From a virus, in the IMG/VR virus record IMGVR_UViG_3300009285_001844, positions 1-37,662 of that record: 37,662 nucleotides of DNA. One strand, given 5' to 3'. The position numbers and the translations under genes are program-made. This document shows positions 8,682 through 37,662 of this stretch, piece by piece. The number at the start of each line of letters is the position of its first letter. Positions within the stretch are counted from its first letter, which is position 1. The notes below the pieces were generated by a model that made no database searches, was not told the DNA's origin, and saw nothing but the letters and a program-made list of their open reading frames with translations.

Positions 8682-8703
8682 AGCAGGGGATCTCTCCCCT
8701 GCT
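8682..8703. terminator. Hairpin between convergent operons
   Basis: AGCAGGGGA-TCTC-TCCCCTGCT, a perfect nine-pair stem with a four-base loop, exactly between the ends of the plus cassette and the long minus operon. There is no clear T tract on either side, so termination efficiency is uncertain, but position and stability fit a bidirectional terminator. Confidence 0.6.
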
Positions 8704-9143
8704 CACCGCAATAATCCCCTTCTAACCGCCAACGTCCGTCCCTGCTCCAATATCACCTGCCAGCGATTATAAACCGTTCTCATACTTACCCCAAGTTCCA
8801 TGACAATTAGTTTTTTCACCGAACTTCCGCGCACATAATCCTTATGCGTCCGCTTTAATCCCAACAGTAGTTTATCATCATCATTCAAACCTGCTACCAA
8901 TTCCTTAACTACCTGCAACCACGTTTCCGTTACCGCTAACGATGCCAATGCGATCCCTGCCGATGCCGTCCTATTGCCTGTCGTGCTACCTCTTGGCATA
9001 CCGTCGGGAGGTGGGGGAGAGTTTTCGAGTATTCTCTCCCGGTCCTGCTCGTACTGATGTTTTATGTCGTGATAGTTGATTAGATAGTTAGCGACTATTA
9101 GTTTTTCTTGTTTGAACGGATCAGCGAGAGGTATTTTACTCAT
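8703..9143 (-). CDS. ArpU/RinA-like phage late-gene regulator
   Basis: 146 aa. Central helices 'ALASLAVTETWLQVVKELVAGL' and a C-terminal sigma-region-4-like helix-turn-helix 'MELGVSMRTVYNRWQVILEQG'. Small proteins of this plan (ArpU, RinA and relatives) lie at the end of the early operon in Bacillota phages and activate terminase and structural genes. Here the gene is the last of the long minus operon and is linked to the transporter gene by an ATGA overlap. In related phages the terminase small gene follows directly; here the inverted cassette intervenes. Confidence 0.65.
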   Translation of the reverse strand: MSKIPLADPFKQEKLIVANYLINYHDIKHQYEQDRERILENSPPPPDGMPRGSTTGNRTASAGIALASLAVTETWLQVVKELVAGLNDDDKLLLGLKRTHKDYVRGSSVKKLIVMELGVSMRTVYNRWQVILEQGRTLAVRRGLLR

Positions 9144-9655
9144 TTACGACCTCCCATTTTTACCATACCTGCCCCGACTGCCTGCATAGTTAACTTTATC
9201 AGCGATTGTCCAATTATCGCCATCGGAACTACTGACCAAGGCATAAATCCCATACCCCAAGGTGATAGTCCAAGCACAATAAACACCGTACTGTCAAGTA
9301 TTCCTCCAACGAAACCTGACCACCACACACGCCAGTGGACCGGCAGTTTTAACCTCGTGTAAATCTCAGTGTCGGTTGTTTCGCTTACCGCAAATGCTAT
9401 TATAGAAGCAATGACCACGGGTAAACCCTGTCCCATTGTTGCCGATTGTATCAGTGATAAAAGAAGTGCTACACTTATGAACGCATATGTCATATATCTG
9501 CCATGTTTTTGTTGCACTAAGTCCCTGAGAATAAAAGTTGCCCCTATCGTAAATGTGCCTAAACTTATTAAAAATGGGCCAATGTTTACGGGTGCGAAGG
9601 TGCTAGATAACCAATTTCCGGCCAAAATTGCCGCTACGTAAAGAAATACTATCAC
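9140..9655 (-). CDS. Queuosine-precursor transporter, YhhQ/VUT family
   Basis: 171-aa integral membrane protein with about five to six hydrophobic helices: 'MIVFLYVAAILAGNWLSS', 'FLISLGTFTIGATFILRDL', 'ALLLSLIQSATMGQG', 'VVIASIIAFAVSETTD', 'WWSGFVGGILDSTVFIVLG'. The 'FILRDLVQ..G' segment and 'VSETTDT' with 'G..DS..F' are hallmarks of the YhhQ (QPTR/VUT) family, which takes up 7-deazaguanines such as preQ0. Starts inside the end of the DpdA-like gene (ATGA, 9652-9655) and ends overlapping the ArpU-like gene, so all three are translated together. Pairing with a transglycosylase supports precursor import for DNA modification. Confidence 0.82.
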   Translation of the reverse strand: MIVFLYVAAILAGNWLSSTFAPVNIGPFLISLGTFTIGATFILRDLVQQKHGRYMTYAFISVALLLSLIQSATMGQGLPVVIASIIAFAVSETTDTEIYTRLKLPVHWRVWWSGFVGGILDSTVFIVLGLSPWGMGFMPWSVVPMAIIGQSLIKLTMQAVGAGMVKMGGRK

Positions 9656-10509
9656 GCTATGCCCTCCAAATAATCCCTAAAGTTTATTGTATTGATTAAT
9701 GCTAAGTCCCTCGGATGATAGTTAATATACTTGTCTTGTCTGGTGTATTTCGCTTCCCATTTGCCAGTGTCGGGACTAAATACACCACCAAAAACTGATC
9801 TGCGCTCTGCTGATGAACTGTCAACGCTGAGATTAAAATCATATGGTCTTGCTATTTCTACCCATCTTTCAAGTACAGGTATAGCAGTTACCCCGAACAG
9901 GTGAATATCGGTTATGCCGGCATCTTTTATTAGCGGAAATGACTTCTCCTGTATTTCAAAAAATTGCGGTTGTAGTGTTTTTCTCGCCCCGATTATACAA
10001 AACCCACCCATCCCAATACAGTCCTGCGGTTGCGCTATGCGTAACACCTCTTTTAGACAGGTCAAATATTGTTCTGTAGTCGTACCCTGATTAGACAAAA
10101 CTAACTGACGAGGTGCTAATTTATCCCGTTGACTAACTAAATACTGTGCAGCTCCCACAGTGTCTTTGACGTATTCCCAACCGTTGTCCTCGTCAACGCG
10201 ACATTTTACCTTTTTACCTTCTTTCAACTGCTCGTCAACTAACCTGTCATAACTGACTATTCGCTGAGACACAAAACCTGCCGCCTGCTCAAAATTGAGT
10301 TGACGATTAAGTGCTTCTTCATACGTCAGTCTTTTATCCTTATCAACATCTTGGAACGCTCCTGAGTCAAGGAGGACGTTCACCCCCCCCCTATATATTC
10401 TCACCGTCTTATATATAGGGTTAAGGCAAAGGTTGTCAGTTATATACTCAGGAACCCACGGGCGGCGGTTAAGTCTGTTATTGTTTTTAGATACATAAAA
10501 CTTTAACAT
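9652..10509 (-). CDS. dpdA: DpdA-like DNA guanine transglycosylase
   Basis: 285 aa, TIM-barrel member of the tRNA-guanine transglycosylase superfamily. Motifs align in order: 'LLDSGAFQ' (47-53, general acid/base Asp, like DSGGFQ in bacterial TGT), 'SYDRLVD' (86-92), 'GMGGF' (166-170, like GGLAVGE), 'HLFGVTAIP' (203-211) and 'SVDSSSAERRS' (228-238, the Asp in the position of the TGT nucleophile). The C-terminal CxCxxC zinc site of true TGT is absent and the protein is about 90 residues shorter, as in phage DpdA proteins, which swap guanine in DNA for a 7-deazaguanine. No precursor synthesis genes (FolE, QueD, QueE, QueC) are in the window; the coupled transporter could supply the base. The exact modified base cannot be read from sequence. 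Confidence 0.8.
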   Translation of the reverse strand: MLKFYVSKNNNRLNRRPWVPEYITDNLCLNPIYKTVRIYRGGVNVLLDSGAFQDVDKDKRLTYEEALNRQLNFEQAAGFVSQRIVSYDRLVDEQLKEGKKVKCRVDEDNGWEYVKDTVGAAQYLVSQRDKLAPRQLVLSNQGTTTEQYLTCLKEVLRIAQPQDCIGMGGFCIIGARKTLQPQFFEIQEKSFPLIKDAGITDIHLFGVTAIPVLERWVEIARPYDFNLSVDSSSAERRSVFGGVFSPDTGKWEAKYTRQDKYINYHPRDLALINTINFRDYLEGIA

Positions 10510-10712
10510 TGTTGATCACTTTGTTGCCTTTTTCTCTGCCCCGACCACAGATTAGCGCGAGGCCTGCGAAAATGACTCCGGCAAAAGTTACTGCCATTGC
10601 TGCGGAAATTTGCTCTGCCGTTGAATGAGTGCTGTTTCCAAAGCGGTAAATGTATTTCCAGTGAGCAACCGTAAACTAAAAGTACAGTTTCAATAACAAT
10701 ACTACGCAACAT
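10487..10712 (-). pseudogene. Small membrane protein gene with probable +1 frameshift
   Basis: From ATG 10712 the first frame encodes 'MLRSIVIETVLLVYG', a membrane-like start, then becomes Arg/Ser/Gln-rich and stops at 10503. One base further along, the other frame gives 'VAHWKYIYRFGNSTHSTAEQ' and then a clear membrane helix 'AMAVTFAGVIFAGLALICGR' with a basic tail, ending at 10487. A single extra G near 10668 would explain this. Either the gene is broken, the sequence has an indel, or the ribosome shifts. It sits between two coupled genes of the DpdA operon. Confidence 0.5.
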
Positions 10713-14310: not shown

Positions 14311-14501
14311 CAAATCAACCTCTCAAATCTCCGCATTAACTTAAATCCCCTAAAAACATAGTCGGTAAATTCCTCCAAACTCCTATTCCAAACTACGCCG
14401 GTACTGCGCGCACGATATTTCACGTTGTCATTTTTGACCGAAACAATATCGTATACGCTGCCCTTAAAATGTCTGTATGTTTGCCCTTGTTTTGGTGTCA
14501 T
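14310..14501 (-). CDS. DUF1653 protein, 63 aa
   Basis: 'GQTYRHFKGSVYDIVSV', 'YRARSTGVVWNRSLEEF' and 'RRFERL' match the DUF1653 domain, a small SH3-like barrel common in bacteria and phages, with no proven activity. ATGA overlap with the PP-loop gene upstream. Length is typical. Confidence 0.78.
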   Translation of the reverse strand: MTPKQGQTYRHFKGSVYDIVSVKNDNVKYRARSTGVVWNRSLEEFTDYVFRGFKLMRRFERLI

Positions 14502-15184
14502 GCTGAATCCCTTTCTTTGCGACTAATTAACTGCCTCAATGTTTCTCCTTGCCGGACAGTGTAACCAATCTCATTTTCCAGATCTGCAATTTTACTAAAT
14601 AAGTCAGGGTAGAATTTACTCAACTGAACCCACTCGTCAATAGTATTAAAAATGCATCCATAACAACCAAGTCTAGTAAAATGCTTATACACCGGATTGG
14701 GCACAAGTCCCGCCTGTCTAATCCCCGTAAATATATCTCCGGTTGTTAGGTTTAATAGCGGACGACAACCGCCAATTCTCAATTTTTGGTTATAATAATG
14801 TTCCTGATAAGTTGACCTCTTTTTACTTTCCTCTCTGCGCTCACCTGTTAGCATTATGTCATCGTATCGGTCTATACCTGCGCTAGTTATCCATTTAGTT
14901 AATGGTGCTTGTTTTAAGTCTGACGTACAAAATCTATTTCTAGCATCAGGAAACTTACTTCTATGTCGGCAGTAAGAAAAATAATCCCACTTATCGCTTT
15001 TAATGCGATGTATTTTTATACCCAACTTTATTTCGAGATAGTTCAGGTATTCGTATGTTTCTGGAAACTCACAACCAGTGTCAGCACTAACAAAGATACA
15101 ATTTTCTCGACCATATCTATAAAGAGCATATGCCGTTAAATAAGTAGAGTCTTTGCCTCCCGACACACTTACAACCACTCTCAT
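14498..15184 (-). CDS. PAPS-reductase-like PP-loop protein
   Basis: 228 aa adenine-nucleotide alpha-hydrolase fold with PP-loop 'VSVSGGKDS' (residues 5-13), 'VSADTGCEFPETYEYL', 'NRFCTSDLKQAPL' and a C-terminal 'GLVPNPVYKHFTRLGCYGCIF' with CYGC. This is the phosphoadenosine-phosphosulfate-reductase family as found in phages; relatives include DndC, which works in DNA phosphorothioation, but no Dnd partners are present. It may therefore activate a nucleotide or act on sulfur for another modification. It follows a 308-base gap that may carry structured RNA. Confidence 0.8.
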   Translation of the reverse strand: MRVVVSVSGGKDSTYLTAYALYRYGRENCIFVSADTGCEFPETYEYLNYLEIKLGIKIHRIKSDKWDYFSYCRHRSKFPDARNRFCTSDLKQAPLTKWITSAGIDRYDDIMLTGERREESKKRSTYQEHYYNQKLRIGGCRPLLNLTTGDIFTGIRQAGLVPNPVYKHFTRLGCYGCIFNTIDEWVQLSKFYPDLFSKIADLENEIGYTVRQGETLRQLISRKERDSA

Positions 15185-16432: not shown

Positions 16433-18037
16433 CTAATTGACATGCAGTTTAACTATCTGACTAAATATCCAATCAGGTATCAGCATAACCAATGAATTGC
16501 CAATCGCCTTGTAACGTGCCGTGTCACTCGCTCCGGGAATATTGGTCCAACCGTCCGGCATCGCCATTAAGCGCTCCGTTTCGATTGGCAGGAGTCGCCT
16601 TACCGCATAACCAACCCTAACAGGATTTTGATAGTTAAGCGAATAACCACCTGTGTTTTTGCTTTGCAGTGTTCCGCTTAATTCCTCGGTTTCGTAAAGG
16701 TTTCTGACATCTACAGCACAAACTAAATTATCCACATCGGCACGGTATGACAGATTACCTTTTGCAAGCAGAGCGTTTGCAGGTTCGGGATAACAGATAA
16801 CTAAATCAGTTTCATTCCCCTGCCCTGCTGGTCTGTTTGTCCCTGCTCCGCTTGCGCAAATAGTTCCTATGTTGGGTTTCGGAGCGTTCCTAATGCCATA
16901 AGCAACCGCATGATCCGCCCGACAATCAAGCGTATAGCACGGACCATCTGACACACCTAAACCGTTTTGTTTCTTATCTCCGCTCATGGTTGCGGATTGA
17001 ATAACGTATGCTTTAGGTTCAAGTATTGCAATACCGCCCTGATTTTTAGAAGGTTCTGGAACTGACGTATCCAAACAGTAACAGGTATCAATAAATCTTC
17101 CTCCACTATGGGGGTTGCTTGACTTCATCGAGTTACTTCCGAGTGCATCAAAAGAGTATGCCATCGGTTGCGCTATACATGGTTGCCGTTGCCCCCCCTG
17201 TGCTGTGTTAAGAGTTGGGCAGATTCCGCTTTCGTGAATTCTTGGTACTCCGTCCTGACTTCGTGGTTCAAAGAGGATTGTTGTCTCAATGCCATTTCCA
17301 ACACTTCCGGCAACTTCTTTCCTCGTTTCTCCGCTCGTCTCAAAATCCCCTGACATGCTTTCGCGCTCAAAAAGTATTTCGCCGGCACGTTGACCTCTAA
17401 AATCTGCGACAAGAAAGATTCTCTTACGACGCTGGGCGACTCCCCAGTATTGCGCATCGAGTGTTCTCCAAGCAACACTATGCCCATTCCCTCTGACCAT
17501 TCCGGCTTTTGCCCACTTTCCAGACTTAGGCATTGGAATTTCGGCCGCTGTGATTTCTTCAAGCACGGTTCTAAAATCCTGTCCCGAGTTGCTGCTAAAT
17601 GTTCCGGGTACGTTCTCCCATATTGCGTATCGAGGGTATTCTCCATTTGTCACAAACCTCATTTCTCTAATTATCCGTATCGCCTGACTAAACAATCCTG
17701 ATCGTTCTCCTGCCATCCCCTCACGCTTACCTGCTACGCTTAGATCCTGACATGGACTGCCGAAAGTGATTATATCCACAGGTTTAACTAAAACGTCTTT
17801 AGATGTATTTATATAAAAATTACATTTAGTACCTTTGAAATGTGTGATATAGGTACATAATCCTATATCTTTAATATCGCCAAGGTGTTTCATGTCGGGA
17901 AATCTTAACCGACTAACCGCCATCGGAAATTTTTCTATCTCACTCGCCCAAACTGCCTTAATTCCGTTGCGTTCTGCGGCTAGTGGGAACATTGCCACTC
18001 CGTCAAATAGTGAACCCATCGTCATTTCGTTAATCAA
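16433..18037 (-). CDS. dcm: C5 cytosine DNA methyltransferase
   Basis: Transfers methyl from SAM to cytosine C5. From TTG 18037 (GGAGG seven bases upstream; TTGA overlap with the previous stop), 534 aa. Motif I 'MGSLFDGVAMFPLAAERNG' (7-25), motif IV 'GSPCQDLSVAG' with catalytic Cys96, motif VI 'ENVPG' (141-145), motif VIII 'QRRKRIF' (202-208), motif X 'RYKAIGNS' (about 508-515). Between VIII and X lies a Gly/Ser/Asn-rich segment of about 300 residues, much longer than in bacterial Dcm and typical of phage orphan enzymes; it holds the target-recognition region. No restriction endonuclease partner is adjacent, so protection of phage DNA is likely. Confidence 0.93.
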   Translation of the reverse strand: MINEMTMGSLFDGVAMFPLAAERNGIKAVWASEIEKFPMAVSRLRFPDMKHLGDIKDIGLCTYITHFKGTKCNFYINTSKDVLVKPVDIITFGSPCQDLSVAGKREGMAGERSGLFSQAIRIIREMRFVTNGEYPRYAIWENVPGTFSSNSGQDFRTVLEEITAAEIPMPKSGKWAKAGMVRGNGHSVAWRTLDAQYWGVAQRRKRIFLVADFRGQRAGEILFERESMSGDFETSGETRKEVAGSVGNGIETTILFEPRSQDGVPRIHESGICPTLNTAQGGQRQPCIAQPMAYSFDALGSNSMKSSNPHSGGRFIDTCYCLDTSVPEPSKNQGGIAILEPKAYVIQSATMSGDKKQNGLGVSDGPCYTLDCRADHAVAYGIRNAPKPNIGTICASGAGTNRPAGQGNETDLVICYPEPANALLAKGNLSYRADVDNLVCAVDVRNLYETEELSGTLQSKNTGGYSLNYQNPVRVGYAVRRLLPIETERLMAMPDGWTNIPGASDTARYKAIGNSLVMLIPDWIFSQIVKLHVN

Positions 18038-18222
18038 CTCACTACCTCCACCGCTGCCACGCAATACCCCGGCGACATTCCATCCCGGTAATCGTGTAAA
18101 ACACCCCGGCGATCTTTGAACATATTCCGGTATTTCTCGTCGTACCATTTCCGGTTGCTCTCGTTCGGCAGGTCAACGATGATTTTTAGTTTAGGTTGTT
18201 TGTGGCGTTTCTGTTTCGGCAT
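18034..18222 (-). CDS. Hypothetical basic protein, 62 aa
   Basis: ATG with AAGGAGGATA nine bases upstream. Lys/Arg-rich first 15 residues, then 'LPNESNRKWYDEKYRNMFKDR'. Overlaps the upstream gene by 32 bases and the methyltransferase by four. Function unknown. Confidence 0.62.
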   Translation of the reverse strand: MPKQKRHKQPKLKIIVDLPNESNRKWYDEKYRNMFKDRRGVLHDYRDGMSPGYCVAAVEVVS

Positions 18223-36890: not shown

Positions 36891-37013
36891 GTGCCGAAGC
36901 TCTACGGCAAAAACGTGAGTGCCCAGTGCATCGATGCGGTGGAAACGGTGCTGAAGAAGGGCGAGGTGTTCCGGTCAGATGAGGAACGACTGGGTAAACG
37001 AGAGGGGAATTAA
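36870..37013 (+). CDS. C-terminal fragment of an unknown protein
   Basis: Frame open from 36870 to TAA 37011: 'NKDMQKVPKLYGKNVSAQC' and 'AVETVLKKGEVFRSDEERLG'. GC-richer codons than anything to the left. No start with SD; probably the end of a gene whose beginning was lost at the join. Family not recognised. Confidence 0.45.
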   Translation, partial: SNKDMQKVPKLYGKNVSAQCIDAVETVLKKGEVFRSDEERLGKREGN

Positions 37014-37075
37014 GAATTACGAATTAAGCAACGGAGCATCTTCTTCCTTGATTCTTTATTCATTATTCTTAATTC
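37007..37075. repeat. Inverted repeat GAATTAAGAAT/ATTCTTAATTC
   Basis: Perfect 11-base arms at 37007-37017 and 37065-37075, with extra partial copies (GAATTAAG at 37021) between. Lies in the gap between the fragment and the membrane gene. This repeat style is frequent in candidate-phyla genomes as I recall. Confidence 0.6.
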
Positions 37076-37082
37076 TAGCCAC

Positions 37083-37662
37083 ATGCTCCAATGTCTCCGT
37101 GAACGGCTCACGCTCCTGCTCCTGGCTCTTCTGCCGCTGCACGCGCTTCTGGTGACCGTGGGCACGAGGCTCGTGATGGGCAAAGGCCACGCGCCGCTCC
37201 CGTACCTTGCGCTCTGGAAAGAGGCATTGTTGGGAGTGATTCTGCTGTTGATCGTGGCGGAGGTAGCCGCATCTTTCCGGTGGACTTCGGACTTCGGACT
37301 TCGGACTTCGGGTAGCAGATGGGATGTTATTGATGGATTGATCGTTGCGTTGCTGGTGCTCGGGCTCGTCGTCACGGCATTCACGCATGGAGATCTGAAG
37401 CTCGCACTGCTGGGGTTCCGGTACGACTTCATTCCGCTTGTTTCTTTCCTCGTCGCGCGTCGAGTGCAGTGGTCGGAAGCGTTTCAACGGATGGCGCTTA
37501 AGGTTCTTCTTGGAATCGGTGTCATTGTTTCCGCGTATGGCATTTTCACAGCGTTCTTGCCGATGAAATTTTTTCTGTGGCTCGGCTATTCCCCGGCACA
37601 CTCGCTCTACTTTGCCGACGGTCCGCTGGCCGCATTCCAACAAGTGAGCGAGACGGCGCTTC
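37083..37662 (+). CDS. Partial membrane protein, O-antigen-ligase-like
   Basis: Open from ATG 37083 through the right edge, 193 codons. Hydrophobic helices 'LTLLLLALLPLHALLVTVG', 'LLGVILLLIVAEVAASF', 'VIDGLIVALLVLGLVVTAF' and 'VLLGIGVIVSAYGIFTAFL', with a polar loop 'GFRYDFIPLVSFLVARRV', a pattern of O-antigen ligase/polymerase-type membrane proteins, here short of the catalytic loop. GC-rich codons differ from the phage part. The minus-strand frames over this region are shadows. Confidence 0.6.
   Translation, partial: MLQCLRERLTLLLLALLPLHALLVTVGTRLVMGKGHAPLPYLALWKEALLGVILLLIVAEVAASFRWTSDFGLRTSGSRWDVIDGLIVALLVLGLVVTAFTHGDLKLALLGFRYDFIPLVSFLVARRVQWSEAFQRMALKVLLGIGVIVSAYGIFTAFLPMKFFLWLGYSPAHSLYFADGPLAAFQQVSETAL
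37282..37302. repeat. Tandem repeat GGACTTC x3
   Basis: Three exact copies of a seven-base unit inside the membrane-protein gene, giving 'SDFGLRTS'. The same kind of short tandem unit is common in some candidate-phylum genomes. Confidence 0.6.

Follow-up and report, generated by a model that had tools for sequence, protein, structure and literature searches.

DpdA and YhhQ in described phages and bacteria

A survey published in 2019 recorded 76 phages that encode DpdA but no preQ0 synthesis genes, proposed that the base is supplied by the host or taken up, and noted phage homologs of YhhQ (PMC6884629). The dpdA-only phages of group 3 give a mixed picture, which speaks against the modification proposed below: dADG was measured in Salmonella phage 7-11, and Mycobacterium phage Orion contains none, in a statement of PMC8306585 that cites PMC6884629; dADG has also been measured in phage MED16 (PMC8306585). 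The phage described here resembles this group in that a DpdA-like enzyme is encoded without preQ0 synthesis genes, but the DpdAs of group 3 belong to other subfamilies, and MED16 has no reported YhhQ.

Pairs of dpdA and yhhQ genes have been deposited for several unrelated phages. In Vibrio phage PS25B.1, the enzyme precedes the transporter, the same order as in our locus, and the two genes overlap by 29 bases; in Pectobacterium phage PEAT2 the genes also overlap, but, unlike in our locus, the transporter comes first. The pair is further found in Mycobacterium phage StevieRay and other cluster P phages, as well as in Flyfo siphovirus Tbat1_6, with the transporter first in both StevieRay and Tbat1_6. 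The DpdAs of PS25B.1, PEAT2, StevieRay and Tbat1_6 belong to other subfamilies and are 200-262 aa long, compared to 285 aa here. The initial annotation of our locus considered a self-contained import-and-insert pair unusual; given these adjacent or overlapping pairs, and given that scavenging was proposed in 2019 (PMC6884629), the strategy is not new. In bacteria, dpd islands (dpdA-C, dpdD-K) include YhhQ in about 9% of the cases (PMC11888242), and fusions of TGT with QPTR-family transporters are on record (PMC11130926). What is new here is a well-supported DpdA-like clade (support 100/100) that lacks a Pfam or NCBIfam model and includes archaeal members.

The predicted transglycosylase and its modeled fold

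The window, that is, the entire stretch of 37,662 nucleotides analyzed here (IMG/VR record IMGVR_UViG_3300009285_001844), contains three coupled genes, for a predicted transglycosylase, a predicted transporter and a putative transcriptional regulator (Table 1). The transglycosylase and transporter open reading frames have the positions and lengths given in the initial annotation, both on the minus strand, and the DSGAFQ, GMGGF and SVDSSS motifs attributed to the transglycosylase are all present. The reported lack of the TGT zinc site was also borne out: the protein contains no CxCxxC, compared to CDCYTC in E. coli TGT; neither the zinc site of tRNA TGTs (CxCxxC...H) nor the C-terminal zinc subdomain was found.

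Table 1. Features of the predicted modification locus, in window coordinates
Feature	Coordinates	Strand	Description
DpdA-like transglycosylase (predicted)	9652..10509	(-)	285 aa, ATG start, zinc-free; TGT-fold model, conserved motifs
Conserved residues of the transglycosylase			D48 (DSGAFQ), D88 (SYD), Q141 (NQG), G168-G169, H203 (HLFG), D230 (SVDSSS)
Predicted queuosine-precursor transporter, YhhQ/QPTR family (Vut_1, COG1738)	9140..9655	(-)	171 aa, GTG start
Putative phage transcriptional regulator	8703..9143	(-)	146 aa, last of the three coupled genes
Enzyme-transporter overlap, GTGA	9652..9655	(-)	transglycosylase stop and transporter start
Transporter-regulator overlap, ATGA	9140..9143	(-)	transporter stop and putative regulator start
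Candidate membrane peptide ORF	10487..10597	(-)	36 aa; 3' end overlaps transglycosylase start; possible gene at most

Comparison of the enzyme with Pfam yielded no match of note (the best, at 0.057, was to an unrelated family), and there was no match in NCBIfam. The profile of PHROG 887 (queuine tRNA-ribosyltransferase) matched at 3.8e-4, over residues 165-257 only. In a set of 13 phage proteins, BLASTP aligned the enzyme with DpdA of phage 9g (E 1.5e-5), and profile-profile comparison with five phage DpdAs gave a probability of 87 for the C-terminal half. A sequence search of the PDB returned chance-level matches only (1xcr, 0.045), tblastn against 50,697 phage records gave no match, and scanning genomes with this one protein as the query recovered no relatives. 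Family alignments were needed to detect relatives, and two alignment-based scans of viral contigs recovered proteins about 28-52% identical to the enzyme.

An AlphaFold2 model built from three near-identical sequences had a pLDDT of only 47 and was discarded, whereas one built with a 28-sequence alignment reached a pLDDT of 93.9 and a pTM of 0.92. In a Foldseek search of the PDB with the latter model, the 13 best matches were all TGTs or DpdA, headed by 2pot (3.6e-10), with the solved structure of DpdA, the DNA preQ0 insertase 7ui4, ranking third (4.2e-9); the first non-TGT barrel appeared only at 1.7e-4. The comparison with DpdA that the initial annotation had proposed thus came out in its favor. 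VIA-align aligned the model with Zymomonas mobilis TGT, including preQ0 complexes, with a Z-score of 23 over 249-251 residues at 2.7-2.8 A, and matches in a viral structure library were phage queuine tRNA-ribosyltransferases and a protein of Vibrio nt-1. The model therefore supports a TGT-superfamily fold, a (beta/alpha)8 barrel, with DpdA-like features.

All the residues listed in Table 1 are invariant among 12 diverse family members, and the model places them at or just past the ends of strands E44-47, E83-85, E135-140, E164-167, E201-205 and E226-231. The Asp residues of DSGAF and SVDSS, the absence of which would have spoken against the annotation, are kept across the family; D48 and D230 align with 9g-type DpdA, corresponding to the Asp of DSG(A/G)F and the nucleophilic Asp of (V/C)DSS. 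H203 aligns with His196 of phage 9g DpdA, a conserved residue that marks the 9g type and is missing in DpdA2 (PMC6884629). With respect to E. coli TGT, HHalign and MAFFT fixed DSG(A/G)F alone as an equivalent motif, and the remaining equivalences follow motif order and strand-end position in the model.

Thus, the enzyme shares with 9g-type DpdA (PMC6884629) the TGT fold, the absence of the zinc site, the conserved His, and the DSGAF, GG, HxFG and DSSS motifs in identical order. It differs in that the two are only about 23-25% identical, SYD and NQG replace LDG and FHAG of the 9g protein, and the record described here lacks synthesis genes. By eye, NQG is closer to IIQG of E. coli TGT than to FHAG, which, along with tRNA TGTs being the best folds by Z-score, would fit an enzyme that acts on tRNA, namely, a reduced TGT that alters queuosine or preQ1 in host or phage tRNA and is fed by the transporter; bacterial TGT-QPTR fusions and neighbors indeed serve tRNA queuosine salvage (PMC11130926). 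Such an activity appears improbable, however, because the zinc site and the C-terminal zinc subdomain are missing and because the family includes the DNA-type fusions and neighbors described below.

Neighbors, fusions and phylogeny of the enzyme family

In a 151,782-base record (L027), the region directly upstream of the enzyme relative encodes QueD (PF01242, 3.2e-33), QueC (5.9e-77), a DUF6884 protein (6.4e-43) and, in the place of QueE, a radical-SAM protein (3.8e-12). A DUF6884 gene is likewise located upstream of the relative in another record (L028). This domain has been reported as that of DpdC (PMC11888242). The family shares the proximity of QueD, QueE and QueC with 9g-type DpdA, and the proposed DpdA chemistry and the DUF6884/DpdC neighbors with bacterial dpd islands; unlike in those islands, genes for DpdB, DpdC and restriction are absent from the window. 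In a third record (L033:3848-6586, same as L078), a 912-aa open reading frame combines the transglycosylase domain with ParB_N and HTH_ParB. In L027, L028 and L033, the family is accordingly associated with genes for preQ0 synthesis, DpdC or ParB-like proteins, but no such association is seen in the window itself. ParB-like genes also adjoin other phage DpdA genes.

A single open reading frame of 1056 aa in yet another record (L074:5608-8778) encodes the transglycosylase domain, Mom (4.8e-12) and C5 DNA methylase (3.8e-29), so that this viral protein unites three DNA-modifying domains. The relative in L029:4001-4877 is split into two open reading frames, of 163 and 103 aa, and therefore looks broken or misassembled. 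It is the fusions with ParB, Mom and the DNA cytosine methylase and the DpdC-type DUF6884 neighbors that point to DNA, rather than tRNA, as the target of the family.

In a tree of 39 proteins, the family forms one clade (support 100/100), apart from the 9g, 7-11, PEAT2 and StevieRay types, within which the window enzyme groups with those of L027 and L028, its nearest sampled neighbors (96/100). Because some of the reference rows have long branches, the tree was used for clade separation alone. From the family neighbors, the fusions and the position in the tree, the enzyme likely acts on DNA, and a preQ0-type base is the likely donor.

Low similarity, the separate clade and the long branch also mean that the substrate and the base could differ from those of DpdA. 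The enzyme might insert preQ1, queuine or an unknown base resembling a purine, and represent a separate functional class, as would suit the distinct clade, the lack of a Pfam or NCBIfam model, the motif differences and the Mom fusion of L074. We consider this doubtful given the L027 relative, whose neighbors QueD, QueE, QueC and DUF6884 make up a route from preQ0 to ADG.

Relatives 44-46% identical to the enzyme are encoded in two archaeal MAGs (L079 and L080). In each, adjoining genes encode a UvrD helicase and a PD-(D/E)XK nuclease, and the L080 locus further includes a DNA methylase and a type III restriction-like helicase; these loci are possibly defense islands that use a modified base. 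Two more archaeal genomes (L082 and L083) encode the enzyme without helicase-nuclease neighbors in the short stretch covered. In a phylum search, the family was detected in 3 of the 293 genomes related to archaeal MAG G020. More speculatively, the family could be a separate class of DNA transglycosylases of bacterial viruses and a few archaea, differing from DpdA in the base or target site and built into Mom/cytosine methylase or ParB modifiers; archaeal members may then mark self DNA for helicase-nuclease restriction, and the window would hold a salvage version with a dedicated importer. The fusions and neighbors of this divergent clade suggest further DNA modifications.

The predicted transporter and gene coupling

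The 171-aa protein was identified in the initial annotation as a YhhQ/VUT membrane protein, in agreement with its matches to Pfam Vut_1 (PF02592; 4.4e-13, 50.3 bits, above the curated cut-off of 27.2) and, over nearly the full length, PHROG 4899 (4e-30). TIGR00697, "queuosine precursor transporter", gave 6.6e-10 and 39.1 bits, below the equivalog cut-off of 50.95 (37.4 and 41.8 bits in relatives), so we treat the protein as a family member to which this model does not assign a function. Over 133 residues, it shares 26% identity with E. coli YhhQ (1.5e-5); its identity to YhhQ-like proteins of phages is 27-35%. Among phage proteins, the most closely related ones include the "putative preQ0 transporter" found in Seuratvirus-type phages and the dpdA-adjacent transporters of PEAT2, StevieRay and PS25B.1. 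Because cargo differs among QPTR proteins, with preQ0/preQ1 transported in E. coli and queuine in Chlamydia (PMC11130926), that of the window protein is a guess within preQ0, preQ1 and queuine.

The enzyme and the transporter were initially described as overlapping by ATGA. The four-base coupling holds, but the first junction reads GCGTGATAG, and the overlap is thus GTGA; ATGA is the overlap of the transporter and the regulator, as the second junction reads AAATGAG. Coupling to the regulator, also noted initially, is established by this overlap, and the "late regulator" designation remains tentative, being drawn from weak matches to PHROG 36 and PHROG 248, which recur in two relatives; no NCBIfam model matched the regulator.

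The order of enzyme, transporter and regulator is kept in the relatives. In relative L003, both overlaps are identical to those of the window, and in L007 the enzyme-transporter overlap is ATGA. The genes upstream differ between L003 and the window (for example, the L003 open reading frames include no PHROG 10141-like gene ahead of the enzyme), but the three genes remain together. Comparison of the window with L003 gave dN/dS ratios of 0.09 (enzyme), 0.13 (transporter) and 0.19 (regulator); the three are therefore real genes that evolve under purifying selection.

Proposed source of the base

The initial annotation inferred that the base is scavenged, in view of the absence of FolE, QueD, QueE and QueC genes. 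In the window, the QueD, FolE and radical-SAM (QueE) profiles indeed found no match, and the same profiles were without a match in a near-identical record of 59,949 bases (G001). The QueC profile gave a single match in G001, below the cut-off, to a gene of the PAPS-reductase family (window 14498-15184, minus strand). This gene was rejected as a QueC substitute, considering that it matches PAPS_reduct at 3.5e-21 and QueC at 0.022. A search of the window for a DUF6884 (DpdC-type) gene gave no match.

Among 16 records that encode the enzyme family, the transporter is present in four, all closely related, and missing in 12. All four transporter-bearing records lack every synthesis gene tested, and QueC above the cut-off occurs only in G004 and G008, both without the transporter. 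Replacement of synthesis by import would fit this pattern across the records, which are linear and may be partial.

Taken with the fold, the motifs, the family context, purifying selection, the coupling and the lack of synthesis genes in the available sequence, this leads us to propose, with a probability of roughly 70%, that the two genes form a salvage-type DNA-modification module, consisting of a DpdA-kind enzyme and a base importer. In the proposed mechanism, which extends these observations to DNA as the substrate, the identity of the base, the direction of transport and a protective role, the Asp of SVDSSS, inside the TGT barrel, would attack a deoxyguanosine of the phage DNA at its sugar, releasing guanine, and a 7-deazaguanine base, most likely preQ0 and possibly preQ1, would be inserted instead. 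The co-translated YhhQ-family protein would import this base, so that the phage would not need to make it and would depend less on a host that possibly lacks the synthesis pathway. DNA modified in this way would be protected against restriction by the host.

Alternatively, preQ0 made by the host could be used on phage DNA, with the transporter topping up the pool or serving host tRNA queuosine, as separate pathways. Many dpdA phages infect preQ0-making hosts, and the 2019 survey saw no correlation of YhhQ with a group of phages (PMC6884629); moreover, Dp-1 and Seuratvirus-type phages carry YhhQ alongside synthesis genes. This arrangement nevertheless seems unlikely, in that the four-base coupling of exactly the enzyme and the transporter is conserved in close relatives, and dpdA-yhhQ adjacency recurs in unrelated phages. 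With the two genes of the proposed salvage module in E. coli, the source of the base in dpdA-only phages becomes answerable.

Other features of the window

A C5 cytosine DNA methylase (PF00145, 2.7e-36) is encoded at 16433-18148 on the minus strand, and the phage may therefore carry two kinds of DNA modification. The right end of the window (about 37000-37662) contains long overlapping open reading frames on both strands, with SPKSEVRS/TSDFGLRTS-like repeats, as well as a hydrophobic plus-strand open reading frame that is unlike the remainder of the window; this end may be chimeric or of low complexity.
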